Assembly: GCA_016209015.1 (NCBI GenBank)
Contig: JACQWY010000013.1
Span: 28,968-92,967 of the forward strand
DNA length: 64,000 nucleotides
Direction: 5' to 3'
Source: Gammaproteobacteria bacterium
GTDB taxonomy: Bacteria > Pseudomonadota > Gammaproteobacteria > Ga0077536
Position numbers and translations under genes: made by a program. Each line of letters opens with the position of its first letter. Position 1 is the stretch's first letter. Shown here one piece after another: positions 9,148 to 29,112 of the stretch. Under the pieces are notes generated by a model, which was not told the origin of the DNA, searched no databases, and saw only the letters and a list, made by a program, of their open reading frames with translations.

Positions 9148-9689
9148 GCGAGTTGAGGTCGCCGTCGCGTTTTTGCCCTACGACCGGGAACCTCGCGGCC
9201 GCTAAGCCCGGGGGGCGCGGTGCGACGCTCGGGGCCTGGATTTGCGTGATCGCGCTGTGCTCCGTGGTCGTGGCCGCCCGGGCGGTCGAAGCCGATCCGT
9301 TCGAGGCGCGGATGCGGATGCTCGGCGAGGAGCTGCGCTGCCTCGTCTGTCAGAACCAGACGCTCGCGGATTCGCAGTCCGGACTCGCCGAGGACATGCG
9401 ACGCGAGATGCGCACGATGATGAGCAAAGGAATGACGGATCGCGAAATCGTGGACTTCCTGGTGCAGCGTTACGGGGACTTCGTCCGCTATCGGCCGCCG
9501 GTCAAGGCGACGACAGCCGTCCTGTGGTACGGCCCGGCCCTCGCACTGCTCGCGGGACTCTTCTTCTTGTGGCGCCGAATCGCGCGCCGTGCTGCCGCAG
9601 TGGACGCCGCGGCCGCTGATCTCAGCGCCGAGGAGCGGGCGCAACTCCAATCGCTGATGACGGATGGGACCGCGGAGGCTCCTCGATGA
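9144..9689 (+). CDS. ccmH: Cytochrome c-type biogenesis protein CcmH
   Basis: This 181-residue protein has an N-terminal hydrophobic segment (about residues 30-46), the family's redox motif LRCLVCQNQ at about residues 65-73, and a second membrane helix at about 133-150. CcmH reduces or presents apocytochrome cysteines to CcmF. The ATG overlaps the ccmF stop (ATGA), so the start is fixed by coupling. No ccmG (DsbE) gene lies between ccmF and ccmH, unlike the common System I order, so thiol supply must come from elsewhere. Confidence 0.93.
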   Translation: MSELRSPSRFCPTTGNLAAAKPGGRGATLGAWICVIALCSVVVAARAVEADPFEARMRMLGEELRCLVCQNQTLADSQSGLAEDMRREMRTMMSKGMTDREIVDFLVQRYGDFVRYRPPVKATTAVLWYGPALALLAGLFFLWRRIARRAAAVDAAAADLSAEERAQLQSLMTDGTAEAPR

Positions 9690-11206: not shown

Positions 11207-12217
11207 ATGTCAGCAGTCATCAAGCCCTTGCCCCTGCGGCCCCAGACCGACAATCTCGCGCCGGCGCAGCCGATCCCGGTACTGCCGCCGAAAGCGGCGC
11301 CGGTCGTCGCGCCACCCGGCGAACATCGGGATCCGAACCGCTCGGGCCTGCGCCAGCATGTCGCCGAGCTCTTCTATTCGACCGGTGACCGGCTCGGGAC
11401 GCTGTTCTTCTTCCTCGTCATGACCGCCGTCATCGTCGCGGGCTACAGACTGCGTCTCGACCGCTTCATCACGCCCGAATACGGATCCGGCTACCTGCTC
11501 GGCATCGCCGGCGGGAGCCTGATGTTGCTGCTCCTGATCTACCCGTTGCGCAAGCGTTATCCGCGCCTGGCGTGGCTCGGTTCGGCCCGCGGCTGGTTCC
11601 AGGCGCACATGATGATGGGCGTCGTCGGCCCCGCGTGCATTCTCTATCACTGCAACTACCAGCTCGGCGCCTTGAACAGCAACATCGCGCTCATCTGCAT
11701 GCTCGTCGTCGCGGGCAGCGGTCTCTTCGGACGCTACTTCTACACCCGCATCCACTATGGTCTCTACGGCACGCAAATCACGCGCGTCCAGCTCAAGCAG
11801 GACATGGAGCTCACCCGCTCGCGCCTGAAGGAGCTTTTCCTGTTCGAATCCGCGCTCGCCGATTGCCTGCATGCCTTCGAGAAGAATGCCGTGCCGCCGG
11901 ATGGCGAGACGGCGCGACTGGTGCACGCGCTCTCCATGGGGCTGCGCACGCACTGGGTCTACGGCAAGGCGGTGCCCTTGCTGCGCCGTGCGGTATTCGC
12001 GGAAGGCGAATCGCTGGATTGGGATCCGAAGCACACGCGCCGGCGCTACGCGGACGCGCTGCGGGTCCTGACGGTGCACCTGGATCTCGTCCGCAAGCTC
12101 TCCCAGATCAGTTTCTTCGAACGGCTGTTCTCGCTCTGGCACATCCTCCACGTGCCGCTGTTCGTGATGATGGTCATCACCGCCGTGGCTCACATCATCG
12201 CGGTGCACGTGTTTTGA
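11207..12217 (+). CDS. Predicted dihaem b-type membrane cytochrome
   Basis: The 336-residue protein has a proline-rich cytoplasmic N-terminus (1-50) and about five membrane helices (near 65-82, 96-112, 130-148, 160-177 and 308-334). The third helix carries two histidines 14 residues apart (AHMMMGVVGPACILYH), and the last helix again has histidines 14 apart (HVPLFVMMVITAVAH). That pattern is the known signature for two stacked b haems held between two helices. A 120-residue soluble region lies between helices 4 and 5. By position, 12 bp after ccmI and just before the multihaem cytochromes, it is a good candidate for the quinol-oxidising entry point. I do not recognise a named family with certainty. 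Confidence 0.7.
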   Translation: MSAVIKPLPLRPQTDNLAPAQPIPVLPPKAAPVVAPPGEHRDPNRSGLRQHVAELFYSTGDRLGTLFFFLVMTAVIVAGYRLRLDRFITPEYGSGYLLGIAGGSLMLLLLIYPLRKRYPRLAWLGSARGWFQAHMMMGVVGPACILYHCNYQLGALNSNIALICMLVVAGSGLFGRYFYTRIHYGLYGTQITRVQLKQDMELTRSRLKELFLFESALADCLHAFEKNAVPPDGETARLVHALSMGLRTHWVYGKAVPLLRRAVFAEGESLDWDPKHTRRRYADALRVLTVHLDLVRKLSQISFFERLFSLWHILHVPLFVMMVITAVAHIIAVHVF

Positions 12218-12223
12218 GATGCC

Positions 12224-14008
12224 GTGCTGCCTGACATGCGCTGGACCAGACTACTCCTGCTCGGAGCGGGCCTGATGCTGTGGGCGGCCGGCGCATGGGC
12301 AGAGAATCGGATCGAGCGTCTCGTCATGCCGGGCGCGCTCGTGCAGAGCCATGCGAAATACGAGGACCAGTGCGAGAAGTGCCACGAGTTCCTGAGCAAG
12401 AAGGCACAGACGGGTCTCTGCCGGACCTGCCACGACAAGATCGACGCCGACATCAAGGCACACAAGGGTTTCCACGGCCGCATCGACGACGTGGACACCA
12501 TGGAGTGCCGACGCTGCCATACGGATCACATCGGCCGCAAAGGCGACATCGTCCTGCTCGACGAGGGCACGTTCGTCCATTCGAAAACGGACTTCGAGCT
12601 CGAGGGCGCGCATCAGCACGTGAAATGCGCGGAGTGCCACGAGTCCGGCAAGCCGCGCCGCGAAGCGCCCCACGACTGCTATTCCTGCCACCGCAAGGTC
12701 GATGCCCACGACGGGAAGCTCGGCAAGAAGTGCGGCGACTGTCACGACGCGAAGGCCTGGCTCGAGGCGCGCGACAAATTCGATCACGACAAGACGAAAT
12801 TCCCGCTCAAGACCAAGCATCGCGACGCGGCCTGCGCGAGCTGCCATCCCGCGCAGCGCTACAAGGACATCCCGCGCGACTGCCACGCCTGCCACAAGCT
12901 GAACGACGCGCACGGCGGGCGTTACGACGAGAAATGCGAGAAGTGCCACAAGGAGGAAGGTTGGAAGAAGCTCGTCTTCGATCACACGAAGGACACGAAG
13001 TATCCCCTCGAGGGCAAGCACAAGGACGTCGCCTGCGATTCCTGCCATCCGGGGCGCATGTATCACGACAAGGCGAAGACCGACTGCCACGGTTGCCACG
13101 AGAAGGACGACGACCACAGGGGCCGCAATGGTGCGAACTGCAAGTCCTGCCATCGCCCCGAGGGCTGGGAGAAGGTGAAGTTCAACCACGACACGGACAC
13201 GAAGTGGCCCTTGCGCGGCCGGCACGAACAGGTCGATTGCAACGCCTGCCACAAGCCGGAATCCGATCCGAAGAAGACGCCGCACGAATGCTTCGGCTGC
13301 CACGAGCACGACGACCGGCACGAGGGCCGTTTCGGCAAGAAGTGCGAGACCTGTCACCGCGTGGAGAGCTGGCAGGTACTGCACTTCGATCACAACAAGG
13401 ACACGAAGTACCCGCTGTTCGGCAGGCACGCGCTCGCGAAGTGCGAGTCCTGTCACACGGGTGGCGTGTACGACAAGAAGAAGCTCGGCAAGCTCTGCAA
13501 CGACTGCCACGAGACCGACGATCCGCACAAGGGCAAGCAGGGCAAGGAATGCGATCACTGTCATCAACTGACGGGCTGGACGGACGTGCGCTTCGATCAC
13601 GACCTGACGCGCTTCCCGTTGATCGGCCTGCATGCCGCGCAGCCCTGCGAGAGCTGTCACGCGACGCCGGCTTACAAGGACACGCCGCAGAAGTGCGGCG
13701 AGTGCCACAAGAACGACGACGTCCACGGCGGCCGGCTCGGCAAGGCCTGCGGGGACTGCCACAATCCGAACGATTGGAAGCTCTGGGACTTCGACCACAA
13801 CAAGCGGACGAAGTACAAGCTCGACGGACGGCATGCCGGGCTCAGTTGCACGGCCTGTCACACGACGCTGGTCGAGGATCGCATTCGGCTCGCCAAGGAT
13901 TGCTACGGCTGTCACGAAGCGGACGACGTGCACCACGAGGTGTTCGGCAAAGCCTGCGATCAGTGTCACACCACGCAGTCCTTCAAGAAGGCCGACGTGA
14001 GACGTTGA
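12224..14008 (+). CDS. 24-haem periplasmic c-type cytochrome
   Basis: A signal peptide (MRWTRLLLLGAGLMLWAAG) is followed by 24 CXXCH motifs by hand count in 594 residues. They sit in about eight repeats of roughly 70 residues with three haems each. The repeat core is FDH..T.FPL.G.H, then C..CH, a basic stretch, C..CH..DD.H.G and a third C..CH ending in Trp. The protein is rich in Lys and Asp and should be soluble in the periplasm, passing electrons along a haem chain. The start is either GTG at 12224 or ATG at 12236; both leave the signal peptide intact. It lies 6 bp after the cytochrome b gene and 51 bp before the giant cytochrome. Confidence 0.93.
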   Translation: MLPDMRWTRLLLLGAGLMLWAAGAWAENRIERLVMPGALVQSHAKYEDQCEKCHEFLSKKAQTGLCRTCHDKIDADIKAHKGFHGRIDDVDTMECRRCHTDHIGRKGDIVLLDEGTFVHSKTDFELEGAHQHVKCAECHESGKPRREAPHDCYSCHRKVDAHDGKLGKKCGDCHDAKAWLEARDKFDHDKTKFPLKTKHRDAACASCHPAQRYKDIPRDCHACHKLNDAHGGRYDEKCEKCHKEEGWKKLVFDHTKDTKYPLEGKHKDVACDSCHPGRMYHDKAKTDCHGCHEKDDDHRGRNGANCKSCHRPEGWEKVKFNHDTDTKWPLRGRHEQVDCNACHKPESDPKKTPHECFGCHEHDDRHEGRFGKKCETCHRVESWQVLHFDHNKDTKYPLFGRHALAKCESCHTGGVYDKKKLGKLCNDCHETDDPHKGKQGKECDHCHQLTGWTDVRFDHDLTRFPLIGLHAAQPCESCHATPAYKDTPQKCGECHKNDDVHGGRLGKACGDCHNPNDWKLWDFDHNKRTKYKLDGRHAGLSCTACHTTLVEDRIRLAKDCYGCHEADDVHHEVFGKACDQCHTTQSFKKADVRR

Positions 14009-14059
14009 GCTAGAGTTCGAAGGACAAAGGGAAGCGACGTACAGACGACGAGTGTGGGG

Positions 14060-17000
14060 ATGAGTCGGGGTACAAATAAGGATTTCGCATGGCTGCAGGC
14101 CTGGACGCGCGTCTTCGCGACGCTCGCGCTGATCCTGTGCGCCCTCGTGCTGCCCCGGACTGCGCCGGCGCTGTCGGTTCAGATGAGCTCCTTCGACCAC
14201 GAGCAGACCGTCTTCCCGCTGCGCGACGCGCACCGGCTGCTGGAGTGCGAGAACTGCCACCAGCGCGCGACGTTCAAGGGACTCTCACCGGAATGCCGCT
14301 CCTGCCACCGCCTGGGACAGATCGCCGCCACTTATCGCCGCAACGATCACATGCCGACGTCGGATCAGTGCCAGCAGTGCCACTCGACGAAGGACTGGAC
14401 GACGGTCATCCGCACCGACCACAAGGAAGTGACAGCGGCCCGCTGCGAAGCCTGCCACGACGGCACGCTGGCGCCCGGCAAGCCGACTGTTCACCCCGAT
14501 ACCGGCGAGGATTGCGGCACCTGCCACACCACGGCGGAGTTCGTGAGCGGGATCTTCAACCACACGGGCGTGACGACGGACTGCGTGCGTTGCCACAACA
14601 ACGCGAACGCGACGGGCAAGGATCCGGGGCACATGCCCACGAACGATCGCTGCGAGGACTGCCATGATCCGGGATCCTGGTGGAACGCGCACCTCGATCA
14701 CGCGGACATCACGCCCGGCACGAGCTGTGCGACCTGCCACAACGGCACGCGCGCGAACGGCAAGTCACCGACGCACATCGTGACGTCGGAGGACTGCGGT
14801 GCCTGCCACAGCACGACGACGTGGAACAGCGCGGTGTTCAATCACACCGGCGTGACGAGCGATTGCGCGACCTGCCACGACGGCACGCACGCCCAGGGCA
14901 AGGGCGGTCAGCATCTCAGCACGAGCAACACCTGCGAGACCTGCCATACGCCCCTGGGCTGGTCACCCGCGACGAAGGTCGATCACTCCCAGGTCAACGG
15001 CGTGTGTTCGAGCTGCCACGATGGCGCGACCCACGACGGCGTCGTGGTCACGGGCCGGCCGGCGACGATCGCGGACGGCACTCCGCATCCCGCGGCCGGC
15101 GAGTGCTCGGGCTGTCACGTGCCGGGCGATCCGACCTGGAAGGCGAATCCGCATACGCCTGGCAATCTCGCGAACGGCTGCTATTCCTGCCACAACGGCA
15201 CGTCGGCAGTGACGAAGGGGCCGGCGCACCTCGGCACCTCGACGCTCTGCGAGAGCTGCCATGCGACGACGGCCTGGTCGCCGCGCACGGCCATGGATCA
15301 CACCCAGGTCACACAGCTCACGCCGTGCATCGCCTGCCACGACGGCGCGGTGCACGACGCGATCACCGTCGTAGGCAAGGGCCAGACGCATCTGCCGACG
15401 TTCGCGGGCTGCGATAGCTGCCACGGCACCGCGGCCTGGACGCCGGTCACGACGTTCGCCCATACGGGCATCACCACGGGCTGCATCGATTGCCATACGG
15501 GTACATTCCCGCCGGCCCTGGGCAAGAATCCTGCGACGCACATCGCCTCCTCGACGCGTTGCCAGATGTGCCATCAGGGCACGACGGCCTGGACGCCGCT
15601 CCTGGCCGCCCAGGTCGATCACACGCAAGTCACCGGCAACTGCACGAGCTGCCACGGCAGCGCGCTCACGCTCGATACGCTGACGACCGAGGTCAAACCG
15701 CTCGGCCACCTCTCGACCACCTCCGAATGCAGCGTCTGTCACAGCACGACGGCCTGGAAGCCCGCGAGCGGCTTCGATCACCAGGGCATCTCGACCGGCT
15801 GCTCGGCGGCGGGTTGCCACGTCGACGGCCGCACGAGCTCGCCGCTCGGCCGCGGCGCGAACCATTTCGCCACGAACGCGACCTGCGAAGACTGCCATTC
15901 GATGGGGGTCTCGTTCACGCCCCACACGACGGTCAAGCATGCGAACTTCACGGCACCGACGCCGTGCAAGACCTGTCACGACGGCGGCACGCACGACGGC
16001 ATCACCGTCACGGGCAAGACGCAGAACCACATTCCGACGACTGCCGACTGCGGCGGCTGCCACGTGGGTGCCGAGACCTCGCTGTCCTTCGTCGGCGGGA
16101 CGTTCGATCACACCGGCACGACGAGCGGCTGCGCGAGCTGCCACGACAAGGTGCACGAGCAGGGCATGAGCCCGACCCACATCGCGACGACGGCGGACTG
16201 CGTGACCTGCCACGCGACCGCTGCCGCGCTCCTGAGCTGGACCGGCGGCACGTTCGATCACGCCGGCACGAGCACCGGCTGCGTGACGTGTCACGACGGC
16301 TCGCATGCGCCCGCGGACGGCAAGGGTCCGAGCCACGTCGCGAGCACGAATTCCTGCGAGCTCTGCCACACCGATTCCGCCGTGACGCAGCTCTGGACGA
16401 GCACGCCGACCAGCGGACACATGGATCACGGTCAGCTCACCTCGGTCACGCCGTGCGCGAAATGCCATGCGACGACGGCCGGCAGCTCGCTCACGATCGA
16501 CGGCATGACCGTCACGGGCCGGCCGACGAACACCGCGAGCGGTGAACCGCATCCCGCGACCGGCGACTGCAACGCCTGTCACAGCACGACGGGCTGGACG
16601 GGCGTCACGTTCGCGCACAGCGGCGTGACGAGCGGTTGCTCGGCTTCGGGCTGCCACGTCGATCGCAATACCTCGCCGCCGCTCGGCCGCGCCGCGAGCC
16701 ACATCGCGACGAATACGAACTGCCAGGACTGCCATTCGATCGGCGGCACGTTCACGCCGCACACGACGGTCAACCATGCCGACATCACGAACGTCTCGCC
16801 GTGCAAGAACTGTCATGACGGACTGGTCCACGACGGCGTGACCGTCACCGGCAAGACCCCGACCCACATTCCGACGGGCGCCGACTGCGCGACCTGCCAT
16901 GCCGGTGCCGAGACCTCGCTCTCCTGGGTCGGCGGCGTCTTCGATCACACCGGCACGACGAGCGGCTGCTCGACCTGCCACGACGGCACGCACGTCGCGG

Positions 17001-20000
17001 GTACCGGCCCCCTGCACATCGGCACGACGACGGTCTGCGAGGCCTGCCACACGAATTCGGCGGCAACGCTGTCCTGGACCAGCACGCCCACGGCGGGCAA
17101 CGTCGATCACAATCACATCACGAACACCGTGCCCTGCACCGCCTGCCATGCGAACGCGGCAGGGGCGAGCCTCGCGATCGACGGCATGGTGATTACGGGG
17201 CGGCCCGTGACGACCATCGGCGGCACGCCGCACCCGGCGACCGGCGATTGCGGTGGTTGCCACAACCGCTCGAACTGGCAGGGCGCGAGCTTCGATCACA
17301 CCGGCGTGACGAGCGGTTGCGCGGCGTCCGGCTGCCATACCGACGGCCGCACGAGCTCGCCGCTCGGCCGTGCCGCGAGCCACATCGCGACGAACACGAA
17401 CTGCCAGGACTGCCACTACGTCGGCGTCTCCTTCACGCCGCACACCACCGTCAAGCACGCGGACATCACGGCCCCGACGCCCTGCGCGGCCTGCCACGAC
17501 GGCGCGGTGCACGACGGCATCACGATCACCGGCAAGAGCTCACCGCACATCCCGACCAATGTTCCGACCGCGACGGACTGCGGCACCTGCCACGTCGGCG
17601 CACAGAACTCGCTGAACTGGGCGGGTGGTGTCTATCACTCGAAAGTCACCGTGACCTCGGGATGCACGACCTGCCACGACGGCTCGCTGATCGCAGCCGG
17701 TGCGGACGCCAAGGGCGCGAATCACATCGACTCGAGCTCGAACTGCGAGACTTGTCACGGCACCTCGGTGTGGAGTCCGACGACGACCATCGATCACACC
17801 CAGGTCACCGGCACGTGCGTGAGCTGTCACGACAACGCGAGTCACGATGGCCACCTGATAGGCGGCAAGGGTCCGGAGCACATCGGGTCGAGCAATGCCT
17901 GCGACGTCTGCCATACGGATTCGGCTTCCACGCTGTCCTGGACCTCGTCGCCGGCGGCGGGCAACGTGCCGCATGCCCAGATCACCAACACGACGCCGTG
18001 TACGGCGTGTCACGCGACCGGTGCAGCCAGCAGCGTCGTCGACGGCATGACGGTACAGGGCCGGCCCGCCACGGTAGCGGGCGGCGGTCCGCACCCCACG
18101 ACCGGCGACTGCCAGTTGTGTCATTCGACGTCGAACTGGGCGAGCGTAAATTTCGACCACGCCGGGGTGACGAGCGGCTGCGCGAATTCGGGCTGCCACG
18201 TCGACGGCCGGACCTCCTCGCCGCTCGGGCGTTCCGCGAACCACTTCGTGACGAACACGAAGTGCGAGGACTGCCACTACACGGGTAACGCATTCACCCC
18301 GCGCATGGCGGTGAAGCACGCCGACTTCACCTCGTTGACGCCCTGCTCGGCCTGCCACGACGGCGGAACCCACGACGGCATCGTGGTGACGGGCAAGTCG
18401 CAGGATCACGTCCCGACGGTCGCGGACTGCGCGGGGTGTCACGTCGGCGCCGAGACGACGCTGTCCTGGGTGGGCGGTACGTTCGACCACAGCGGCACGA
18501 CGAACGGCTGTTCCAACTGTCACGACAATACGCACCACGCGGGCCGCGGCCCGAATCACATCGGCACCAGCGCGCTCTGCGAGGCCTGTCATACGGACTC
18601 GGCGTCGACCCTGGATTGGACGTCTACGCCGACCGCCGGCAATGTACCGCACGCGCAGATCTCGAACACCGTGCCATGTACGGGCTGCCATGCGAGCGGC
18701 GCGCTCAGCAGCACGGTCGACGGGATGACGGTGCAGGGCCGTCCGGCGCTGAAGGCGGACAATTCGCAGCATCCGACGACGGGCGACTGCGCGGGCTGCC
18801 ACAACACCACGAACTGGACGAGTGTCGTCTTCGACCATTCCGGCGTAGCAAACAACTGTTCGCAGTCCGGGTGTCACGAGGACGGCCGCGCCGCGGCGCC
18901 GCTCGGGCGCTCGGCGAACCATTTCGCGACGAACATGAACTGTCAGGACTGCCACAACATCGGCGGCTCGTTCACCCCGCACACGACGGTCGTCCATGCG
19001 GACTTCACGACGCTGACACCGTGCGCAACCTGCCACGACGGCGCGGTGCACGACGGCGTGACGGTGACGGGCAAGAGCACGCCTCACATCCCGACGACCG
19101 TGCCTTCGGCGACCGACTGCACGACCTGCCACACCGGTTCGCAGAACACGCTGTCGTGGTCCGGCGGTCAGTACCACAGCAAGGTGACGGTGACCTCGGG
19201 TTGCACGACATGTCATGACGGTACGCTGACCGCCACCGGCGCCCAACCGAAGAGCGCGCACCACGTGGCGACGTCGAACTCCTGCGAGAAGTGCCACGGC
19301 ACCGCGAACTGGCTGCCGCTCTCGGGCATCGATCACGCCGAGGTGACGGGCACCTGCGTGAGCTGCCACGACGGCGCCGCCCACGAGAGTCTGACGATCT
19401 CCGGCAAGGGGCCGCAGCACATCGGGAGCAGCAACACCTGCGACGGCTGCCACACGGATTCGGCTGCGACCCTGCTGTGGACTTCGACACCGACGGCCGG
19501 CAACGTGCCGCACGCGCTGATCGCGCCCGTCACGCCGTGCACGACCTGTCACTCGAGCAGCGCGGCGAGCAGCGTGGTGGATGGCATGACGGTGCAGGGC
19601 CGGCCGGCCCTGAAAGCCGACCATGCCCCTCATCCGGCGTCCGGTGACTGCGTGCTCTGCCACAGCACGAACTCCTGGCTCGGTGCGGCGTTCAGCCATA
19701 CCGGCGTGACGAACGGCTGCGCCGATGCCGGCTGCCACGTCGACGGAAATGCCGCGGCGCCGCTCGGACGCTCGGCGAACCACTTCGCGACGAACACGAA
19801 CTGTCAGGACTGCCACAACGTCGGCGGCACGTTCACGCCGCGCAAGACCGTGGTACACGCCGACTTCACGACGCTCACGCCCTGCGCGGCCTGCCACGAC
19901 GGCGGCACGCACGACGGCATCGTGGTGACCGGCACGAGCCCGGGTCACATTGTGACGAACATCCCGACGGCGACGGACTGCGGTACGTGCCACGTCGGTG

Positions 20001-23000
20001 CGCAGAACACGCTGTCCTGGGCGGGCGGTCAGTATCACAGCAAGGTCACCGTGACCTCGGGCTGCGCGAGCTGCCACGCGGATGGCAGCGCGAGCTCGCC
20101 GCTCGGACGCTCGGCGAACCACTTCGCGACGAACACGAACTGTCAGGACTGCCATGCCGCGAACGGCACGTCCTTCACGCCGCACACGACCGTGAAGCAC
20201 TCCGACTTCACGACGCTCAAGCCCTGCGCGAGCTGCCACGACGGCGCAGTGCACGACGGCGTCACCGTGAGCGGCACGAACCCGGGCCATATCGCGACGA
20301 ACCTCCCGATCCCGACGGACTGCGCGACCTGCCACGTCGGCGCCGAGACGTCGCTGAGCTGGGCGAACGGCCGTTACCACGAGAAGGTCGAGATCGGCAC
20401 GAACTGCACGAGCTGCCATTCCGACGGACACGCGACCTCGCCGCTCGGCCGCTCGGCGCAGCACTTCGCGACGAATACGAGCTGCCAGGACTGCCATACC
20501 TCGGGCGGCGCGTTCTCGCCGCGCAAGACCGTGGTGCACGCCGACTTCACGACCCTGACCCCCTGCGCGAGCTGTCACGACGGCGCAACCCACGACGGCA
20601 TCACGGTCACGGGCAAGAGCACGCCGCACATCCCGACGAACCTGCCGTCGGCGACGGACTGTGCGACCTGCCACACCGGCGCCCAGAACACGCTGTCCTG
20701 GACGGGCGGGCTCTATCATTCGAAGGTCACGGTGACGAGCGGCTGCACGAGCTGCCACGACGGCACGCAGACCGCGGCCGGTGCGCAGGCCAAGGGCACG
20801 AACCACGTGGCGAGCTCGAACAGTTGCGAGAAGTGCCACGGCACCGCGGCCTGGAGCCCGCTCTCCGGGATCGACCACACCCAGGTCACGGGCACTTGCG
20901 TGAGCTGCCACGACAACGCGGCCCACGACGGCCTGACGATCGGCGGCAAGGGCCCGCAGCACATAGGCACGAGCAATCTCTGCGAGATCTGCCACACGGA
21001 TTCGGCCTCGAGCCTGCTGTGGACCTCGACGCCGACCGCCGGGAACATGCCGCACGCGCAGATCACCTCGACGACGCCCTGCACGACCTGCCATGCGACG
21101 GGCGCGCCGAGCAGCGTCGTCGACGGCATGACGGTGCAGGGTCGTCCGGCGCTCGACGGACACGGCAATGCGCACGTCGCGACGGGCGATTGCGTGAACT
21201 GCCACAACACCTCGAACTGGACGAGCGCCTCGTTCAACCACACCGGCGTGTCGAGCGGCTGCACGGCCGTGGGCTGTCATACCGACGGCCGGGCCACGGC
21301 GCCGCTCGGACGCTCGGCGAACCACTTCGCGACGAACACGAACTGTCAGGACTGCCACAACGTCGGCGGCTCGTTCACGCCGCGCAAGACCGTGGTGCAC
21401 GCCGACTTCACGACCCTGACGCCGTGCGCGAGCTGCCACGACGGCAGCACGCACGACGGCATCGTGGTGACCGGCACGAACGTGGGGCACATCGCGACGA
21501 ACGTTCCGGCGGCGACCGACTGCGCGACCTGCCACGTCGGCGCCCAGAACACGCTGTCCTTCGTCGGCGGGCAGTACCACAGCAAGGTGACCGTCACCAC
21601 CGGCTGCACGAGCTGTCACACGGATGGCCGCACGAGCTCGCCGCTCGGGCGTTCGGCGAACCACTTCGCGACGAACACGAAGTGCGAGGACTGCCACTAC
21701 GTCGGTAACACGTTCACGCCCCACACGACGGTCAAGCACGCCGATTTCACGACGCTCACGCCCTGCAAGACCTGCCACGACGGCGCGGTGCACGACGGTG
21801 TGACGGTGACCGGCAAGACGACGAACCACATCGCGACGACGGCGGATTGCGCGGGCTGTCACGTCGGCGCGGAGACGACACTGAACTGGGCGGGCGGTAC
21901 GTTCGATCACACCGGCACGAGCACCGGCTGCGCGACCTGCCACGACGGCACGCATGCCGGCGGCACGGGCCCGCAGCACATCGGCACGACCACGCTCTGC
22001 GAGGCCTGCCATACCAACTCCGCGACGACGAAGCTCTGGACCTCGACGCCGACCACGGGCAACGTGCCGCACGGCCAGATCACCTCGACCACGCCGTGCA
22101 CGACCTGCCACGCGACCGCGACCGGCACGAGCTTCACGATCGACGGCATGACGATCACCGGCCGGCCGCTCAAGGAGGCGGATGGCTCGACGCACCCGAC
22201 GACGGGCGATTGCGTGAACTGTCACGGCACGACGAGCTGGCAGGGTGCGGTGTTCAACCACAGCGGCGTGACGAGCGGCTGCTCGGCCTCGGGCTGCCAC
22301 ACCGACGGCAACGTGAGCTCGCCGCTCGGGCGCTCGGCGAATCACTTCGCGACGAACACGAACTGCCAGGACTGCCACAACGTCGGCAGCGCGTTCACGC
22401 CGCGGAAGACCATGAAGCACGCCGATCTGACCGCGTTGACGCCCTGCGCGAGCTGCCACGACGGTGCGGTGCACGACGGCGTGACGGTGACGGGCACGAG
22501 CGCTTTCCCCGGCCACATCCCGACGAACATCCCGACGCCGACGGATTGCGGCACCTGCCATACCGGCGCGGAGACCTCGCTGTCGTTCGCCGGCGGTCAG
22601 TACCACAGCAAGGTCGCAGTCAGCACGAACTGCACGAACTGCCACAGCGACGGCCGCACGAGCTCGCCGCTCGGCCGCGCGGCGACGCACATCGGCACGA
22701 ACTCGCAGTGCCAGGACTGCCACACCACGTCGGCCTGGGCGCCCGCCAAGAGCCCGATCCAGCACGGCGACATCACGACGCTCGTGCCCTGCCTCGCCTG
22801 CCACGACAACGCGGCGCACGACGGCAACACGATCGCCGGCAAGGGCCCGAACCACATCGCGAGCTCGAGCCTCTGCCAGAACTGCCACAATACGAACGTC
22901 TGGTCGCCGCACACGACGATCGACCACACCCAGGTGACCGGGACCTGCGTGAGCTGCCACGACAATGCGAGCCACGACGGCATCACGATCGGGGGCAAGG

Positions 23001-26000
23001 GTGCGCAGCACATCGGCAGCAGCAATACCTGCGACGGTTGCCACACCGATTCGTCCGCGACGCTGTCCTGGGAGTCGACACCGACGGCCGGCAACGTGAA
23101 CCACCTGCTGATCACCTCGACCTCGCCGTGCACGACCTGCCATGCGACGGCCGCCGGCACGAGCCTCACGGTCGACGGCATGGTCGTCACCGGTCGCCCC
23201 GTGAAGAAGGCGGACAACACCGCCCATCCGGCGGCGAGCGACTGCGTGGGTTGCCACAGCACCACGGCCTGGACGCCGGCGACGGGCTTCGATCACACGG
23301 GTGTGAACAGCGGCTGTACTGCAGCGGGCTGCCACGTCGACGGCAACGCGAGCTCGCCGATGGGACGCGGCGCGAACCACATCGCGACGAACACGAACTG
23401 CCAGGATTGCCACAACACCGGTGCCGCCTGGACGCCGCGCAAGACCATGGTGCATGCGGACCTCACGGCGCTGACCCCGTGCGCGAGCTGTCACGACGGC
23501 GCGACCCACGACGGGATCGTCATCCTCGGCAAGAACGGCGGCCACATCGCGACGAACATCCCGTCGGCGACGGATTGCGGCACCTGCCACGTCGGCGCGC
23601 AGAACACGCTGTCGTTCGCGGGCGGCGCGTACCACGCGAACGTGACGGTCACGAGTCAGTGCACGAGCTGCCACACCGACGGCCGGACGAGCTCGCCGAT
23701 CGGCCGCGCCGCGACGCACATCGGCACGAACACGCGCTGCCAGGATTGCCACACGACGACGGCCTGGACGCCGGCGAAGGCGACGATCAACCACGCCGAT
23801 ATCACGGCGCTGACGCCGTGCCTCGCCTGTCACGACAACGCATCACACGACGGCAACGTGATTACCGGCAAGAGCGGGCAGCACATCGCGACGACGAGCC
23901 TCTGCCAGAACTGCCACAACACGAGTGTCTGGCGCCCGGCGACGAGCGTCGATCACACCCAGGTCTCCGGCACCTGCGTGAGCTGCCACGACAACGCGAG
24001 CCACGACGGCCAGACGATCGCCGGCAAGAGCGCACAGCACATCGGCACGAGCAATGCCTGCGACGCCTGCCATACGAATTCGGCATCCGCGCTGTCCTGG
24101 ACCTCGACGCCGACCGCGGGCAACGTGAATCATGCGTACATCACGGCGACCACGCCGTGCACGGCCTGCCATGCGACGAACCAGCCGAGCCGCACCATCG
24201 AGAGCATGACCGTGCAGGGCCGGCCGGCGCTGAAGGCCAACGGCACGCAGCATCCCGTGACCGGCGACTGCGGCGCCTGCCACAGCATGACGGCCTGGGT
24301 GCCGGCCGTGACTTTCGATCACAGCGGCATCGTGAACAACTGTTCGCAGTCCGGGTGCCACATCGACGGCAATACGAGTCCGCCGAGCGGCCGCGGTGCG
24401 CAGCACATCCCGACGAATGCGAATTGCCAGGATTGCCACGCCATCGGCACGACGTTCACGCCGCACACGACCGTGAAGCATTCGGACATCACGACGCTCA
24501 CGCCCTGCGCGAGCTGTCACAACGGCACGGTGCGCGACGGCATCACCATCTCCGGCCTGAGCAACGGCCACATCCCGGTCAACGTGCCCTCGGCGACGGA
24601 TTGCACGACCTGCCACGTCGGTTCGCAGAACACGCTGAGCTGGGCGCCGGGCGTCTATCACACCCACGTCACGGCGACGGCGGGCTGTCTGACCTGCCAT
24701 TCCGGCACGTACACCTCGCAGGGCGCAGAGGCGAAGAACGTCGGCCACATCACGAGCTCGAACAACTGCGAGAAGTGCCACAGCACGTCCGTGTTCAAGC
24801 CCGTCGTGAAGGTCGATCACAACGAGCTCACGCTCGGCTCGGGCTGCTACGGCTGCCACAACAACACGACGGCGCAGGGCAAGGGCCCGCAGCACATCAA
24901 GACGAGCAATACCTGCGAGTCCTGCCACAAGACCTCGGCGTCGACACAGTTGTGGGTCCCGGTCAACGCGAGCGATGTCGATCACACCCAGATCACCACA
25001 CTGACGCCGTGCTCGAGCTGCCATGACGGCGCCGTGCACGACGGCATGACCATCGAGGGCAAGGACGTCCAGCACCTCAACACCTCGAACATCTGCGAGA
25101 ACTGCCATACCGGCAATGCGGTCGCGCCGGGCTGGGCGATTCCTTCGCCGGCGGGCGTGAAGCACACCGACGTGATCGGCACCTGCTTCACCTGCCACAA
25201 GGACAACGGCACGAACCACACCGGGCTCGGCACGGTGATCGAGGGCCGCAACACCGCCGCGCACATCGCGACGAACACGGTCTGCGAGGACTGCCATTCG
25301 ACGTCGGCCTGGCGGCCGTACACCCAGGTCAACCACGCGGATGTGACGGGCACCTGCACGAGCTGCCACAACGGCGCCGTCCACGACGGCATCACGGTCC
25401 AGGGCCGGCCGAACGATGCCGTCCACAACAACGCGAACACGCAGGCGAAGCAGTGCGACGACTGCCACACGACCACGACCTGGGTGACGACCGTCTTCGA
25501 CCACACCGGCATTACGACCGGCTGCGCGAGCTGCCATGCGACCGCACTCGCCACGAACAAGCCGAGCGACAAGGTGCACCTCGCGCTCAAGGCGACTGCG
25601 CCCTGCGAGACCTGCCACAAGACGACGCTCGCCTGGACCGTCACGGCCGTCGATCACACCCAGTTCACGACGACCACGCCGTGTGCGAACTGCCACGACG
25701 GCGCGACGGCCACGCACAAGCCCTCCGACACGATCCACAACCAGACGACGTCGGACTGCGTGAACTGCCACGCCACGACGTCCTGGGTCGTGACGTTCTT
25801 CGATCACACCGGCATCACGGGCGCCTGCTCGGGCTGCCACAACGGCACGACGGCGACCGGCAAGACGCAGGCGACGCACTTCATCACGGTACGCGAGTGC
25901 AATTACTGCCACTCGACGTCGGCCTGGAGCGTCCCGATCACGGGCTTCGCGCACCAGGCGGCGAACTTCACCGTGATGAAGCTCAACACGCATCGCGCCT

Positions 26001-26269
26001 ACAGCTCGTTCTCCTGCAAGACCTGCCATGTCGGCAACGCCGAGACCACGGCCTATGTGACGCCGGCCTACTCTGGCAAGTGCGCGGGCTGCCATGCCGT
26101 CAGGTCGACCTATGTGCCGTCTTCCGACGAAGTTTGGAAGGCCAGCAGCCACAGCAGCGACGTCCCGAACGACCTCGCCAGTCATGCGGATTGCGCCGGC
26201 GTATGCCATCCGAAGAGCGCGACCGCGACCAAGTCGGGCGAACACAGGGTCAGTTCGAGCAGCTTCTGA
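14060..26269 (+). CDS. Giant multihaem c-type cytochrome, about 144 haem motifs
   Basis: From the ATG at 14060 the protein is 4069 residues; a GTG at 14054 would add two. A signal peptide covers about residues 1-38. By hand I count about 133 CXXCH, ten CX4CH and one CX3CH motif (26192-26209), or one haem site per 28 residues from residue 63 to the end. The body consists of repeats with cores such as FDHTG, CHDG.HDG, HADFTTLTPC and SPLGR. The N-terminal 45 residues (FDHEQTVFPL then CENCH and CRSCH) match one repeat of the upstream 24-haem protein. Mature composition is high in Thr, Ser, Gly, His and Asn. The frame is open over 12.2 kb with no stop or frameshift. It is probably exported to the periplasm or cell surface as a long electron wire or store; the fold is unknown. 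Confidence 0.95.
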   Translation: MSRGTNKDFAWLQAWTRVFATLALILCALVLPRTAPALSVQMSSFDHEQTVFPLRDAHRLLECENCHQRATFKGLSPECRSCHRLGQIAATYRRNDHMPTSDQCQQCHSTKDWTTVIRTDHKEVTAARCEACHDGTLAPGKPTVHPDTGEDCGTCHTTAEFVSGIFNHTGVTTDCVRCHNNANATGKDPGHMPTNDRCEDCHDPGSWWNAHLDHADITPGTSCATCHNGTRANGKSPTHIVTSEDCGACHSTTTWNSAVFNHTGVTSDCATCHDGTHAQGKGGQHLSTSNTCETCHTPLGWSPATKVDHSQVNGVCSSCHDGATHDGVVVTGRPATIADGTPHPAAGECSGCHVPGDPTWKANPHTPGNLANGCYSCHNGTSAVTKGPAHLGTSTLCESCHATTAWSPRTAMDHTQVTQLTPCIACHDGAVHDAITVVGKGQTHLPTFAGCDSCHGTAAWTPVTTFAHTGITTGCIDCHTGTFPPALGKNPATHIASSTRCQMCHQGTTAWTPLLAAQVDHTQVTGNCTSCHGSALTLDTLTTEVKPLGHLSTTSECSVCHSTTAWKPASGFDHQGISTGCSAAGCHVDGRTSSPLGRGANHFATNATCEDCHSMGVSFTPHTTVKHANFTAPTPCKTCHDGGTHDGITVTGKTQNHIPTTADCGGCHVGAETSLSFVGGTFDHTGTTSGCASCHDKVHEQGMSPTHIATTADCVTCHATAAALLSWTGGTFDHAGTSTGCVTCHDGSHAPADGKGPSHVASTNSCELCHTDSAVTQLWTSTPTSGHMDHGQLTSVTPCAKCHATTAGSSLTIDGMTVTGRPTNTASGEPHPATGDCNACHSTTGWTGVTFAHSGVTSGCSASGCHVDRNTSPPLGRAASHIATNTNCQDCHSIGGTFTPHTTVNHADITNVSPCKNCHDGLVHDGVTVTGKTPTHIPTGADCATCHAGAETSLSWVGGVFDHTGTTSGCSTCHDGTHVAGTGPLHIGTTTVCEACHTNSAATLSWTSTPTAGNVDHNHITNTVPCTACHANAAGASLAIDGMVITGRPVTTIGGTPHPATGDCGGCHNRSNWQGASFDHTGVTSGCAASGCHTDGRTSSPLGRAASHIATNTNCQDCHYVGVSFTPHTTVKHADITAPTPCAACHDGAVHDGITITGKSSPHIPTNVPTATDCGTCHVGAQNSLNWAGGVYHSKVTVTSGCTTCHDGSLIAAGADAKGANHIDSSSNCETCHGTSVWSPTTTIDHTQVTGTCVSCHDNASHDGHLIGGKGPEHIGSSNACDVCHTDSASTLSWTSSPAAGNVPHAQITNTTPCTACHATGAASSVVDGMTVQGRPATVAGGGPHPTTGDCQLCHSTSNWASVNFDHAGVTSGCANSGCHVDGRTSSPLGRSANHFVTNTKCEDCHYTGNAFTPRMAVKHADFTSLTPCSACHDGGTHDGIVVTGKSQDHVPTVADCAGCHVGAETTLSWVGGTFDHSGTTNGCSNCHDNTHHAGRGPNHIGTSALCEACHTDSASTLDWTSTPTAGNVPHAQISNTVPCTGCHASGALSSTVDGMTVQGRPALKADNSQHPTTGDCAGCHNTTNWTSVVFDHSGVANNCSQSGCHEDGRAAAPLGRSANHFATNMNCQDCHNIGGSFTPHTTVVHADFTTLTPCATCHDGAVHDGVTVTGKSTPHIPTTVPSATDCTTCHTGSQNTLSWSGGQYHSKVTVTSGCTTCHDGTLTATGAQPKSAHHVATSNSCEKCHGTANWLPLSGIDHAEVTGTCVSCHDGAAHESLTISGKGPQHIGSSNTCDGCHTDSAATLLWTSTPTAGNVPHALIAPVTPCTTCHSSSAASSVVDGMTVQGRPALKADHAPHPASGDCVLCHSTNSWLGAAFSHTGVTNGCADAGCHVDGNAAAPLGRSANHFATNTNCQDCHNVGGTFTPRKTVVHADFTTLTPCAACHDGGTHDGIVVTGTSPGHIVTNIPTATDCGTCHVGAQNTLSWAGGQYHSKVTVTSGCASCHADGSASSPLGRSANHFATNTNCQDCHAANGTSFTPHTTVKHSDFTTLKPCASCHDGAVHDGVTVSGTNPGHIATNLPIPTDCATCHVGAETSLSWANGRYHEKVEIGTNCTSCHSDGHATSPLGRSAQHFATNTSCQDCHTSGGAFSPRKTVVHADFTTLTPCASCHDGATHDGITVTGKSTPHIPTNLPSATDCATCHTGAQNTLSWTGGLYHSKVTVTSGCTSCHDGTQTAAGAQAKGTNHVASSNSCEKCHGTAAWSPLSGIDHTQVTGTCVSCHDNAAHDGLTIGGKGPQHIGTSNLCEICHTDSASSLLWTSTPTAGNMPHAQITSTTPCTTCHATGAPSSVVDGMTVQGRPALDGHGNAHVATGDCVNCHNTSNWTSASFNHTGVSSGCTAVGCHTDGRATAPLGRSANHFATNTNCQDCHNVGGSFTPRKTVVHADFTTLTPCASCHDGSTHDGIVVTGTNVGHIATNVPAATDCATCHVGAQNTLSFVGGQYHSKVTVTTGCTSCHTDGRTSSPLGRSANHFATNTKCEDCHYVGNTFTPHTTVKHADFTTLTPCKTCHDGAVHDGVTVTGKTTNHIATTADCAGCHVGAETTLNWAGGTFDHTGTSTGCATCHDGTHAGGTGPQHIGTTTLCEACHTNSATTKLWTSTPTTGNVPHGQITSTTPCTTCHATATGTSFTIDGMTITGRPLKEADGSTHPTTGDCVNCHGTTSWQGAVFNHSGVTSGCSASGCHTDGNVSSPLGRSANHFATNTNCQDCHNVGSAFTPRKTMKHADLTALTPCASCHDGAVHDGVTVTGTSAFPGHIPTNIPTPTDCGTCHTGAETSLSFAGGQYHSKVAVSTNCTNCHSDGRTSSPLGRAATHIGTNSQCQDCHTTSAWAPAKSPIQHGDITTLVPCLACHDNAAHDGNTIAGKGPNHIASSSLCQNCHNTNVWSPHTTIDHTQVTGTCVSCHDNASHDGITIGGKGAQHIGSSNTCDGCHTDSSATLSWESTPTAGNVNHLLITSTSPCTTCHATAAGTSLTVDGMVVTGRPVKKADNTAHPAASDCVGCHSTTAWTPATGFDHTGVNSGCTAAGCHVDGNASSPMGRGANHIATNTNCQDCHNTGAAWTPRKTMVHADLTALTPCASCHDGATHDGIVILGKNGGHIATNIPSATDCGTCHVGAQNTLSFAGGAYHANVTVTSQCTSCHTDGRTSSPIGRAATHIGTNTRCQDCHTTTAWTPAKATINHADITALTPCLACHDNASHDGNVITGKSGQHIATTSLCQNCHNTSVWRPATSVDHTQVSGTCVSCHDNASHDGQTIAGKSAQHIGTSNACDACHTNSASALSWTSTPTAGNVNHAYITATTPCTACHATNQPSRTIESMTVQGRPALKANGTQHPVTGDCGACHSMTAWVPAVTFDHSGIVNNCSQSGCHIDGNTSPPSGRGAQHIPTNANCQDCHAIGTTFTPHTTVKHSDITTLTPCASCHNGTVRDGITISGLSNGHIPVNVPSATDCTTCHVGSQNTLSWAPGVYHTHVTATAGCLTCHSGTYTSQGAEAKNVGHITSSNNCEKCHSTSVFKPVVKVDHNELTLGSGCYGCHNNTTAQGKGPQHIKTSNTCESCHKTSASTQLWVPVNASDVDHTQITTLTPCSSCHDGAVHDGMTIEGKDVQHLNTSNICENCHTGNAVAPGWAIPSPAGVKHTDVIGTCFTCHKDNGTNHTGLGTVIEGRNTAAHIATNTVCEDCHSTSAWRPYTQVNHADVTGTCTSCHNGAVHDGITVQGRPNDAVHNNANTQAKQCDDCHTTTTWVTTVFDHTGITTGCASCHATALATNKPSDKVHLALKATAPCETCHKTTLAWTVTAVDHTQFTTTTPCANCHDGATATHKPSDTIHNQTTSDCVNCHATTSWVVTFFDHTGITGACSGCHNGTTATGKTQATHFITVRECNYCHSTSAWSVPITGFAHQAANFTVMKLNTHRAYSSFSCKTCHVGNAETTAYVTPAYSGKCAGCHAVRSTYVPSSDEVWKASSHSSDVPNDLASHADCAGVCHPKSATATKSGEHRVSSSSF
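15720..24520 (+). repeat. Internal SPLGR super-repeats of the giant cytochrome gene
   Basis: Fifteen copies of a module follow the pattern haem motif, [HVED]DG, S-P-L-G-R, NHFATNT, C.DCH. In ten copies the leading haem motif is CX4CH (first at 15800-15820, then near 16637, 17317, 18178, 18857, 19718, 21258, 22279, 23312 and 24337). In five copies it is CXXCH at the same place. Spacing between CX4CH copies is about 680 or 860 bp early and about 1030 bp late, showing duplication of blocks of different size. Long stretches are nearly identical at the DNA level, for example around 19780, 20110 and 21310. Confidence 0.85.
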
Positions 26270-26298: not shown

Positions 26299-26350
26299 AG
26301 GTCCCCCGAGACGCGCGTCCCGACTTCACCTCAGATTATTGATAAGAAAA

Positions 26351-26377
26351 ATGGCGGATGCTATTGTTCCCAAATGA
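26351..26377 (+). CDS. Eight-codon ORF coupled to the outer-membrane barrel gene
   Basis: An ATG at 26351 in an A/T-rich patch opens eight sense codons (MADAIVPK) and stops at 26375-26377, overlapping the barrel gene's ATG at 26374 as ATGA. Only a weak purine stretch (ATAAGAAAA) precedes it. The arrangement resembles the short ORF before ccmF. It may be a coupling device, or chance. Confidence 0.3.
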   Translation: MADAIVPK

Positions 26378-29112
26378 ACTATTCATGGCGTAGGCCCCCG
26401 AGGGAGCAGCGGGCGGCCGGTCGGGCATCGCGCCCGTCCGGAGGGTTGCGCCTGGGCGCGTGCCTGCGTGCCCTGCTGTTCGCTGCCGGGCTCGCCGGGT
26501 CCTTCACCGCCGCGGCGGTCGAGCACGTCATGGATGAGCTCGACGTGCAGCCGGACGCCAAGGGCAGTGCGGTGAAGATCACCTTGATGTTCCCCATGCG
26601 CGTGCTGAGCTGGCAGCCCCCGAAGCACGGTGACCTGCTGCACGTCCAGGTCCAGCCCATCCTCCAGCCCGGCATCGACGCCTGCGCGCTGACCGAGCGT
26701 CAGACGCTGCTGTGGAGCGCGACCGATCAGGTGCCGCTCGTCGAGGCGACCTACGAGCCGCAGACGCTGCAGGTGCTGGACCGCACCGGTCAGAGTCCCT
26801 GCCAGAACGGCGAGAACGTCGACCCGTTCGCGGTCAATACGGCGGGCACGCGCGCGCTCGGCTCGGCGGAGATCGCGCTGCGCTTCAATCGTGCGGTGTG
26901 GTACGAGGTCCAGCAGACGGACAACCCGCGCGAGCTGACGGTCGTCCTGCTCGGTGCGAGCGAGGGCAAAGTCGACGTCGACACGACCCAGGAAGTGGAG
27001 GGCGAGAAGCTCACGCCGATCGTCACCGAGCCCGCGAACGAGCCGCTGAACGTGCCGCGCACGCCGGCGCCGCCGCCGGAATCCGCGGCGCCACCCGAGC
27101 AGCCGCTCGCCGAGCAGAACTTCTTTCTCTCGCTCGTCTCCTCGCGTGAAACATTCGGCACCGGCGGTGTGCCCCAGAACCCCGCGTTCGAGGGCAAGCG
27201 TTTCTTCAGCAGCGAGATCCGCAAGGACGGCAAGCCCTGGTACGTCCTGAACGTCGGTTTCTTCGCCGACCGCGCGGCGGCCGACGCGGTGCTGGCCAAG
27301 GTGAAGATCCAGTTTCCGGAAGCGCAGGTGCTCGCCGCGACGGACCGCGATCGCGAGTCGGCGAAGGCCGCCAACATCCGGCCAATCGGTGCCACGCCGC
27401 CCGCGCCGGAAGTGCCGAAGCCCGCGGGCGACCGTACGGCCCAGCTCGTCGGAGAAGCACGCGACGACATCATGGCGAAGGACTTCTCGACGGCGCTGCG
27501 CAAGCTCGACGCCGTCGCCCAGGACGACAAGACCCCGTACCGCAAGGAAGCGCTCGAGCTCATCGGCGTCGCGCGCGAACGCGCGCTGCAGTACGAGCTC
27601 GCCGTCGTCGCCTACCGGCGCTTCCTGAAGAATTATCCGGACGGTCCGGACTCGGACCGCGTCAAGCAGCGCCTACAGGGCCTGCTGACGCAGACCCAGG
27701 AGACCCGGGAGACGCTGCGCCTCTCGCGTCAGGAGAAGGCCGCGGGCGGCAAATTGAAGCCCGCGACGGCGGCGAAGAAGCCGGCCGCGCCGCCGGAGGA
27801 CCAGAAGTGGTCGACCGACGTCATGGGCGGCGTGTCGCAGACCTGGCGGCGCGAGAACCAGTACACGTCGGGCGGCGGCATGGAGCCCGTGACGTCGATG
27901 CTCCAGAACTATCTCGACGTCAATACGCGCATGCAGAAGAACAACCTGCGCGGCAGGGCCCGTCTCAACGCGGGCTACACGACCGATCTGCTCGCGAACA
28001 CCCGCTTCAAGAACCGCAATCAGTTCTCGAACGTGTACTTCGAGATGACCACGAAGGATCGCGGCTGGCTCGGGCGGGTCGGCCGACAGTCGACCGGCAG
28101 CGGCGGCGTGCTGGGCCGGTTCGACGGCGGCGTCGCGAGCTATGCCGTCAACAAGAAAGTGAAACTGAACGTCGTCGGGGGACTGCCCGTCGAGTCGAGC
28201 TCCAACGCGCCGCCGAACGACGACAAGTTTTTCTACGGCATCAACGCCGACATCGGCCAGTTGTGGGGGGCGTGGGATTTCAACGCCTATCTCATCGAGC
28301 AGCGGGCGTACGGTTTCCTCGATCGCCGCGCCGTGGGCGGCGAGGCGCGCTACTTCAAGAACAACCTCTCGGTGTTCTCGCTCATCGACGTCGATGCGTC
28401 GTACGGCGAGCTGAATTCGCTGCTGCTGCTCGGCAACTACCTCTTCCAGAACCGTGCCTCGATGAACGCGAGCTTCGACTTCCGCAAGAGTCCCTATGTG
28501 CTCACGACGGACGCGCTGCAGGGACAGGGGGTGACGAACCTGACCGAGCTCAGGCAGACGTTCACCGAGAACCAGATCCGCGACCTCGCCGCGGATCGCG
28601 CCGCGGCGCGCAGCACGACGCTGTCGATCGGCGGCTACTACCCGTTCAACGACCGCGTCTCGATCAATTCCGATTTCACGACGTCCCGGGTCTCCGGTAC
28701 GCCCGAATCGGGCGGAGTCCCACGGACGCCCGCGACGGACTGGGACTTCATCTACTCGACGCAGCTCCTCGTCAGCAATCTGCCGCGCGAGTCGGACACG
28801 GCGATCCTCGGCGCGCAATACGGCGACTTCAACACGACGAGCATGGTGACGTGCTTCATCGGCACGCGTAACGCGATCACGCCGCAGCTGCGCATCGCGC
28901 CGACGCTGCGCTTCTCGCACTCCGAGAAGCTCGACGGCACGGAGGACTGGACGCTCGCGCCCGACATCCAGCTCGACTATCGTCTGCGCCGGAACATCCA
29001 GTTGCAGCTCGAGGGCGGCATGGGTTACGGCCTGCTCGGCCAAGCCGCGCCGCTCGGCTACTCGCACTTCAACGAATACTTCATCATCGCCGGCTGGCGC
29101 CTCGATTTCTGA
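26374..29112 (+). CDS. Outer-membrane beta-barrel protein with SPOR-like and TPR-like N-terminal region
   Basis: The 912-residue protein has a long basic N-terminus and signal peptide (about 1-48). Next come a beta-rich domain with two cysteines (about 50-190), a Pro/Glu linker, a SPOR-like unit around residue 286 (WYVLNVGFFADRAAADAVL) and a TPR-like helical stretch (about 350-450). From about residue 480 to the end, alternating amphipathic strands form a large barrel that finishes in ...GWRLDF, the terminal Phe expected by the BAM machinery. There is no haem motif. Placed right after two multihaem cytochromes, it is a plausible functional analogue of MtrB/PioB porins that sheathe a cytochrome through the outer membrane, although I see no clear similarity to MtrB. 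Confidence 0.8.
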   Translation: MNYSWRRPPREQRAAGRASRPSGGLRLGACLRALLFAAGLAGSFTAAAVEHVMDELDVQPDAKGSAVKITLMFPMRVLSWQPPKHGDLLHVQVQPILQPGIDACALTERQTLLWSATDQVPLVEATYEPQTLQVLDRTGQSPCQNGENVDPFAVNTAGTRALGSAEIALRFNRAVWYEVQQTDNPRELTVVLLGASEGKVDVDTTQEVEGEKLTPIVTEPANEPLNVPRTPAPPPESAAPPEQPLAEQNFFLSLVSSRETFGTGGVPQNPAFEGKRFFSSEIRKDGKPWYVLNVGFFADRAAADAVLAKVKIQFPEAQVLAATDRDRESAKAANIRPIGATPPAPEVPKPAGDRTAQLVGEARDDIMAKDFSTALRKLDAVAQDDKTPYRKEALELIGVARERALQYELAVVAYRRFLKNYPDGPDSDRVKQRLQGLLTQTQETRETLRLSRQEKAAGGKLKPATAAKKPAAPPEDQKWSTDVMGGVSQTWRRENQYTSGGGMEPVTSMLQNYLDVNTRMQKNNLRGRARLNAGYTTDLLANTRFKNRNQFSNVYFEMTTKDRGWLGRVGRQSTGSGGVLGRFDGGVASYAVNKKVKLNVVGGLPVESSSNAPPNDDKFFYGINADIGQLWGAWDFNAYLIEQRAYGFLDRRAVGGEARYFKNNLSVFSLIDVDASYGELNSLLLLGNYLFQNRASMNASFDFRKSPYVLTTDALQGQGVTNLTELRQTFTENQIRDLAADRAAARSTTLSIGGYYPFNDRVSINSDFTTSRVSGTPESGGVPRTPATDWDFIYSTQLLVSNLPRESDTAILGAQYGDFNTTSMVTCFIGTRNAITPQLRIAPTLRFSHSEKLDGTEDWTLAPDIQLDYRLRRNIQLQLEGGMGYGLLGQAAPLGYSHFNEYFIIAGWRLDF

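Follow-up and report, generated by a model that had tools for sequence, protein, structure and literature searches.

PCC3 porin-cytochrome clusters are a published kind of gene set (He et al. 2017, PMC5566968). Their inner-membrane protein (IMP) is described as carrying two WX3HX13H motifs, an SGXXG motif and five transmembrane helices, and their extracellular subunits as rich in threonine, serine, alanine and glycine (T/S/A/G), with a printed maximum of 85 haem motifs (PMC5566968). In Gallionellaceae, PCC3 partner cytochromes were reported with 21, 24 or 27 haems and the variable cytochromes with 10–35 motifs (PMC10734462), and a count of 57 was given for Leptothrix-group PCC3 (PMC13386937). 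The function of PCC3 is putative in the papers examined. Further motif counts in print are 69 in Desulfuromonas soudanensis (PMC4914508), 112 in a Paludibaculum protein, over 100 in some Bacteroidota proteins (both PMC11495043), and 113 in a protein of Candidatus Methanoperedens manganireducens, described in 2020 as the largest number on record (PMC7082337). MHCscan reported gene neighbourhoods that together contain more than 100 motifs (PMC11475568).

We compared these systems with the window, that is, the whole 64,000-nucleotide stretch of gammaproteobacterial DNA analysed here, in which one cytochrome gene (the giant) encodes 144 haem-attachment motifs. The window shares with PCC3 the gene set of IMP, periplasmic-type and extracellular-type cytochromes and porin candidate, the IMP motifs, a 24-haem partner, a low number of residues per haem, repeats and a T/S/A/G-rich giant (PMC5566968; for Gallionellaceae, PMC10734462). 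It differs in the motif count of the giant, in the ten CX4CH motifs that the giant carries in a hierarchical super-repeat of 8, 10, 12 and 18 haems, and in carrying an additional ccmF, accompanied by ccmH and ccmI, within the gene string of the cluster. The M. manganireducens MHC/S-layer protein is likewise a single chain with more than 100 motifs, but is an archaeal S-layer fusion with fewer motifs, and was set against the giant by its description only (PMC7082337). The Paludibaculum protein and many-motif proteins of Saprospiraceae are also predicted secreted bacterial giants, although the section on them mentions no PCC3 cluster (PMC11495043). Solved structures were compared at the sequence level only, and a PDB sequence search with the giant gave no match at E ≤ 0.001. 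MtrCAB and MtoAB, with ten haems per cytochrome, share the logic of a porin and a multihaem conduit, and Pfam domains MtrC/MtrF II–IV match the giant; however, the porin candidate of the window has no MtrB_PioB match at E ≤ 1, and the genome has a separate MtoAB-like set. Cytochromes of the c7 type have three haems; Pfam Cytochrome_C7 matches are found in the giant, but all of its 144 motifs lie in one chain.

The PCC3 cluster in the window

Judged from its sequence, the giant belongs to a PCC3 porin-cytochrome cluster, in which no other gene is as large. A same-strand gene string comprises homologues of ccmF, ccmH and ccmI (7156–11194), the IMP, a 24-haem cytochrome, the giant and a porin candidate. 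The IMP (11207..12217, plus strand, 336 aa) has WX3HX13H at residues 130 and 311 and SGXXG at residue 171, as in the published PCC3 signature, whereas a simple hydropathy scan gave four helices versus the five published. The frame of the 24-haem cytochrome (12224..14008, plus strand, 594 aa), the predicted periplasmic subunit, starts 6 bases past the IMP. Its 24 CXXCH motifs agree with the periplasmic-type multihaem cytochrome (median 21 haems) of PCC3 clusters, and homologues were found at all 22 other IMP loci examined. An AlphaFold2 model of this protein had a pLDDT of 76 and a pTM of 0.34. The giant (14060..26269, plus strand), the predicted extracellular subunit, has the sequence features of the very-many-haem, repetitive, T/S/A/G-rich cytochrome of such clusters.

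The porin candidate (26374..29112, plus strand, 912 aa) begins 104 bases downstream of the giant and was recognised by homology, by position and by its aromatic C-terminus (...GWRLDF). Homologues occurred in 15 loci, and the protein was 30% identical to the product of the same-position gene of locus L004. The only MtrB_PioB match in the genome was on a different contig from the PCC3 cluster. Ahead of the presumed barrel, the N-terminus of the porin candidate has a SPOR-like and a TPR-like stretch according to Pfam. The SPOR-domain match was above the Pfam cut-off in the porin candidates of both the window and L004 (15656–18325), which suggests a peptidoglycan link.

At the other end of the string lie a CcmF/NrfE-family haem lyase (7156..9147, plus strand), one of two CcmF copies in the genome, a CcmH/NrfF-like protein (9003..9689, plus strand), whose true start is probably downstream of 9003, and a CcmI/NrfG-like TPR protein (9686..11194, plus strand). 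An upstream scan found no promoter-like site, and seven terminator-like sites against 5.2 in shuffles. Before the porin candidate there were one promoter-like site (26339–26367; 9 of 12, shuffles 0.1) and three terminator-like sites against 2.2 in shuffles. These scan outcomes are no evidence of function. On the minus strand, an LpxR-family outer-membrane protein (29137–30291) lies directly past the porin candidate, and a row of ExbD, two MotA/ExbB-family proteins and a 676-aa ankyrin-repeat protein occupies positions 167–5309.

The giant cytochrome and its relatives

An earlier note on this DNA had read the giant as a single open 12.2-kb frame with a signal peptide and had counted 133 CXXCH, ten CX4CH and one CX3CH motif by hand. 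The frame is indeed uninterrupted (14054–26269, plus strand, 4,071 codons counted from a GTG; 4,069 residues from the ATG at 14060), and a regular expression returned identical motif numbers. The motif count, Pfam and the hydropathy scan agree on a giant multihaem cytochrome with a signal-peptide-like start. The mean number of motifs in 500 residue shuffles was 4.6 (maximum 13). All but one of the cysteines (288 of 289) lie within motifs, the exception being Cys29 in the N-terminal hydrophobic stretch. An extra His was present in 141 of the 144 linkers preceding the motifs, with the last His a median of seven residues before the first Cys, which matches what bis-His ligation would need. Pfam Cytochrome_C7 was matched in 21 stretches and the MtrC/MtrF II–IV domain in five. 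The protein (database entry P0001) would have a mass of ~506 kDa with all 144 haems included. Long antisense frames within the gene, for example at 17540–23833, were attributed to the high GC content of third codon positions.

Mean motif spacing in the giant was 27.9 residues per haem. Residues per haem amounted to 28.3 for the whole giant and 24.8 for its 24-haem partner, both inside the published PCC3 range of 22–39. T, S, A and G made up 45% of the giant and 22% of the partner, while K, R, D and E made up 11% and 34%, respectively.

Comparison of N-termini and the hydropathy scan delimited a signal-peptide-like start and a conserved N-cap, FDHxxTxFPLxxAH...CxxCH (14060..14260, plus strand); the hydrophobic stretch covers residues 24–42 of the GTG frame. 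The middle of the giant is a super-repeat region (15800..25204, plus strand), recognised from autocorrelation peaks at 514 and 1027 residues and from the ten CX4CH motifs (residues 583, 862, 1089, 1376, 1602, 1889, 2403, 2743, 3088 and 3430), which delimit blocks of 8, 10, 12 or 18 haems in a hierarchical arrangement. A D....SPLGR-like unit occurs in 15 copies, preceded by CX4CH in ten and by CXXCH in five. Since the two motifs swap at one repeat position, the CX4CH sites probably bind haem. AlphaFold2 modelled an 18-haem super-repeat with low confidence (pLDDT 43). At the C-terminus, the final CX3CH motif and the tail ...SGEHRVSSSSF form a cap (26192..26266, plus strand) shared with related giants. 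The last motif of 19 other cytochromes in the extracellular position with a readable C-terminus was CX3CH in 14, CX4CH in two and CXXCH in three. F or W was among the last three residues in 18 of these 19, including L061, whose tail is otherwise unlike; the one without was L069.

The earlier note had rated the motif number as matching or surpassing the highest haem counts known for a single chain. The number does exceed the printed 85, 112 and 113, but one database protein, P0033, has 148 motifs (134 CXXCH). A search for relatives limited to proteins of 0.55–1.75 times the length of the giant returned 119 proteins, 23 of them with at least 100 motifs. Within these 119, the giant ranked second by all motifs and third by CXXCH alone; P0076 has 138 motifs, of which 137 are CXXCH. 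A search seeded with P0033, in which 1,163 candidates sharing most words were scored, gave no protein longer than P0033 among eight hits. Two distant matches to the giant named as Saprospiraceae/Saprospirales (P0116 and P0117) have 91 motifs each. No larger single-protein motif count in print was found in a literature search that had supplementary tables and most subscription papers outside its scope, and because of that scope we do not claim 144 motifs as a record.

Searching 144 related genomes for the IMP (E up to 1e-8) gave matches in 27, the window's own included. Within the same family, the only other IMP matches were weak (31–33% identity) and came from four genomes of one genus, and since they are so few and weak, the cluster is patchy in its distribution. 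We fetched 20 of the 29 matching places outside the window, which together with the window, L004 and L005 made 23 loci. The WX3HX13H and SGXXG motifs were present in all 23 other IMP-like proteins. The recurring gene order was IMP, a cytochrome of 18, 21 or 24 haems, a variable giant and a porin candidate. Over the 23 loci, the partner had 21 haems in 16, 24 in six and 18 in one (L052). Partners and giants were tabulated by hand; L052 is absent from that table and included in the 23-locus count.

Intact proteins in the position of the giant (n = 19, that of the window included) had 16–144 motifs (median 24), and the second largest had 70. Excluded from giant length and tail counts were giants at contig ends (L005, L006, L050, L051, L052, L064 and the first open reading frame of L068) and L058, which had no giant in view; L003 entered the tail counts only, and L007 only the IMP test. 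L003 contains a 5'-truncated giant (8873–14182) lacking a signal peptide and preceded by unrelated coding DNA, either a remnant or an assembly break. As the other 18 intact proteins range from 16 to 70 motifs, the giant of the window is the extreme of a length series. On these counts, partner length looks constrained and giant length free. A wider range was seen among partner-like proteins P0120–P0239, the best 120 of 6,202, which had 21 to 45 haems, a multiple of three in 116 of 120. Partner length is thus not strictly fixed, given these proteins of up to 45 haems and the 27-haem partners of Gallionellaceae, and the idea of the partner as a fixed ruler, clean in the loci examined, is suggestive only. 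As far as its predicted features go, what is unusual about the giant is its size, not its kind.

Flavoprotein and haem-lyase genes near the cluster

The minus strand at 5296..6621 encodes a flavin/pyridine-nucleotide oxidoreductase that combines a ferredoxin-like domain with a hydrophobic stretch at its N-terminus. By eye, it has one canonical [4Fe-4S] motif and a second in which His replaces one Cys. A homologue was found near the PCC3 cluster in 19 of 23 loci, window included, and was not seen in L052, L064, L065 and L069. The gene is usually divergent from the IMP gene, sometimes with a ccm-like gene between them (4.6 kb of ccm-like genes in the window). In L060 it lies beyond the porin, and in L007 its frame overlaps that of an IMP-like gene by one base. 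The L056 copy (14407–16032) consists of two open frames, split or frameshifted. No such flavoprotein component is named in the text and PCC3 section of He et al., their figure and supplement being outside our scope (PMC5566968). The recurrent flavoprotein, the ccmF beside the cluster and the SPOR/TPR-like N-terminus of the porin candidate are new with respect to the literature examined. Because the IMP has been likened to the membrane domain of ferric reductase/NADPH oxidase (PMC5566968), it is a natural inference that flavoprotein and IMP form a putative split NADPH-oxidase-like pair.

The ccmF gene adjoins the cluster in five loci: the window, L004, L005/L006 (counted as a single cluster split over two contigs), L052 and L063. 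None of these had a 21-haem partner in the stretches examined, several of which are incomplete. The second ccmF of the genome lies with ccmB on contig C56. Among 13 other genomes searched, 12 had one ccmF copy and one had none. NrfEFG and SirEFG serve odd haem motifs, and the second ccmF, with ccmH and ccmI, was considered as a dedicated lyase for the ten CX4CH motifs and one CX3CH motif of the giant. We dropped this idea as unsupported because L004 has ccmF beside the cluster, yet its giant lacks CX4CH, because L061 has three CX4CH motifs and no ccmF in 19.9 kb, and because the PCC3-linked copy is the only ccmF found in genomes G117 and G123.

Placement and possible role of the giant

The giant is probably an extracellular PCC3 subunit that serves as a long haem chain, conveying electrons to or from an extracellular redox substrate and linking up with its periplasmic partner at the partner's outer end. 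Gene order, composition and free length argue for this placement as an outer arm, the T/S/A/G-rich composition fitting that published for extracellular PCC3 subunits. Electrons would pass between a flavoprotein and/or the quinone pool, the b-haems of the IMP, the 24-haem bridge, the porin, the giant arm and the extracellular substrate. Two b-haems in the IMP would carry them across the inner membrane, the 24-haem protein would cross the periplasm, and the porin would allow contact between this protein and the giant at the outer membrane. The giant would extend outward, with duplication of haem blocks setting its reach. Its export could involve a type II secretion system, of which GspD is present in the genome.

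We weakly prefer an inward flow of electrons, in which Fe(II), minerals or some other reduced partner would be oxidised, since the genome also has an MtoAB/CymA-like set, a Uet-like set and a RuBisCO large-subunit gene. The MtoAB-like cluster (contig C50, L024 6777–11922) encodes a mono-haem cytochrome, a decahaem protein of the DmsE/MtrA family, an MtrB/PioB porin and a NapC/CymA-like tetrahaem protein, and the RuBisCO gene lies ~29 kb away on the same contig. The Uet-like cluster (contig C56, L025 928–17770) encodes 11-haem, tetrahaem and triheme cytochromes, a PPIase and an NHL-repeat protein, together with ResB/CcsA-type genes and a Crp-type regulator. For Sideroxydans CL21, above-mean expression of both copies of PCC3 was reported, with a significant rise of the copy 2 IMP in cells capable of iron oxidation (PMC12442390). 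On Fe(II), Sideroxydans ES-1 down-regulated both of its PCC3 clusters (PMC8788666), and each of eight proteome columns gave a value of 0 for Slit_1448, its extracellular cytochrome of PCC3 (PMC12016527). These ES-1 data count against both the outer arm and an inward flow.

Free length variation would also be tolerated by an electron store at or outside the cell surface, a compact or mesh-like haem mass buffering up to ~144 electrons. Such a role has been published as speculation for many-motif proteins (PMC11495043) and for PCC3 (PMC10734462). The flanking conduit genes, however, imply a connection to the inner membrane, and AlphaFold2 models of smaller PCC3 cytochromes were described as long and mostly linear (PMC10734462), so we consider a capacitor unlikely, though worth keeping in view. 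A bolder form of the outer arm makes the giant a single-molecule wire of more than 100 nm: a split NADPH-oxidase-like gate at the inner membrane, made up of the flavin/[4Fe-4S] protein and the b-haem-bearing IMP, would feed the 24-haem bridge and the 144-haem arm, wiring the cytoplasmic nicotinamide pool directly to a substrate ~0.1 µm from the cell, with reach tuned by block duplication. We regard this full version as doubtful.

The earlier note had also suggested that the giant, as one polypeptide, could cross both the periplasm and the outer membrane, because stacking with OmcS-type spacing (~4.7 nm per six haems) would make it ~110 nm long, more than the cell envelope. This suggestion did not stand up well. 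The giant holds the extracellular position and has a composition like that of published extracellular subunits, relatives with as few as 16 haems hold the same position, and the adjoining 24-haem cytochrome (18–24 haems, 23/23 loci) and the porin candidate are a better fit for the spanning roles; a spanning chain is therefore very unlikely. Secretion of the giant and its polymerisation into filaments of the OmcS, OmcE or OmcZ kind would agree with the high haem density and the signal-peptide-like start, but the giant sits among PCC3 partners and the PDB search gave no sequence match, an outcome with which a fold-level relation is still compatible; we hold this reading to be highly improbable.

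Repeats inflated or fused during assembly had to be considered, as the giant is highly repetitive and the draft genome comprises 65 contigs (100% complete, 0.11% contaminated). Within the gene, exact repeats reach 74 bases at most. GC content at third codon positions was 0.79–0.94 over nine stretches, with the minimum in the short last one. Six super-repeat blocks gave 15 pairs with protein identities of 47–69% and dN/dS of 0.32–0.80, below 1 in 15/15; the pairs are not independent, as some blocks overlap in the chain. The short exact repeat and the dN/dS below 1 in all pairs argue against an artefact, and with the diverged blocks and the presence of both the N- and C-caps they make it very unlikely. 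By these measures, the giant looks like an old, constrained repeat protein rather than a collapsed or inflated assembly.

If its haems are loaded and stacked, the giant would be among the largest electron carriers made from one gene. The flavoprotein that recurs near the cluster points to a possible site of electron entry into, or exit from, the cell. With 16 to 144 haems in the same position and 18–24 in the partner across the loci examined, PCC3 clusters offer a natural experiment in wire length. Comparing these natural length variants would make the purpose of PCC3, and the question of whether such giants conduct or store electrons, testable.
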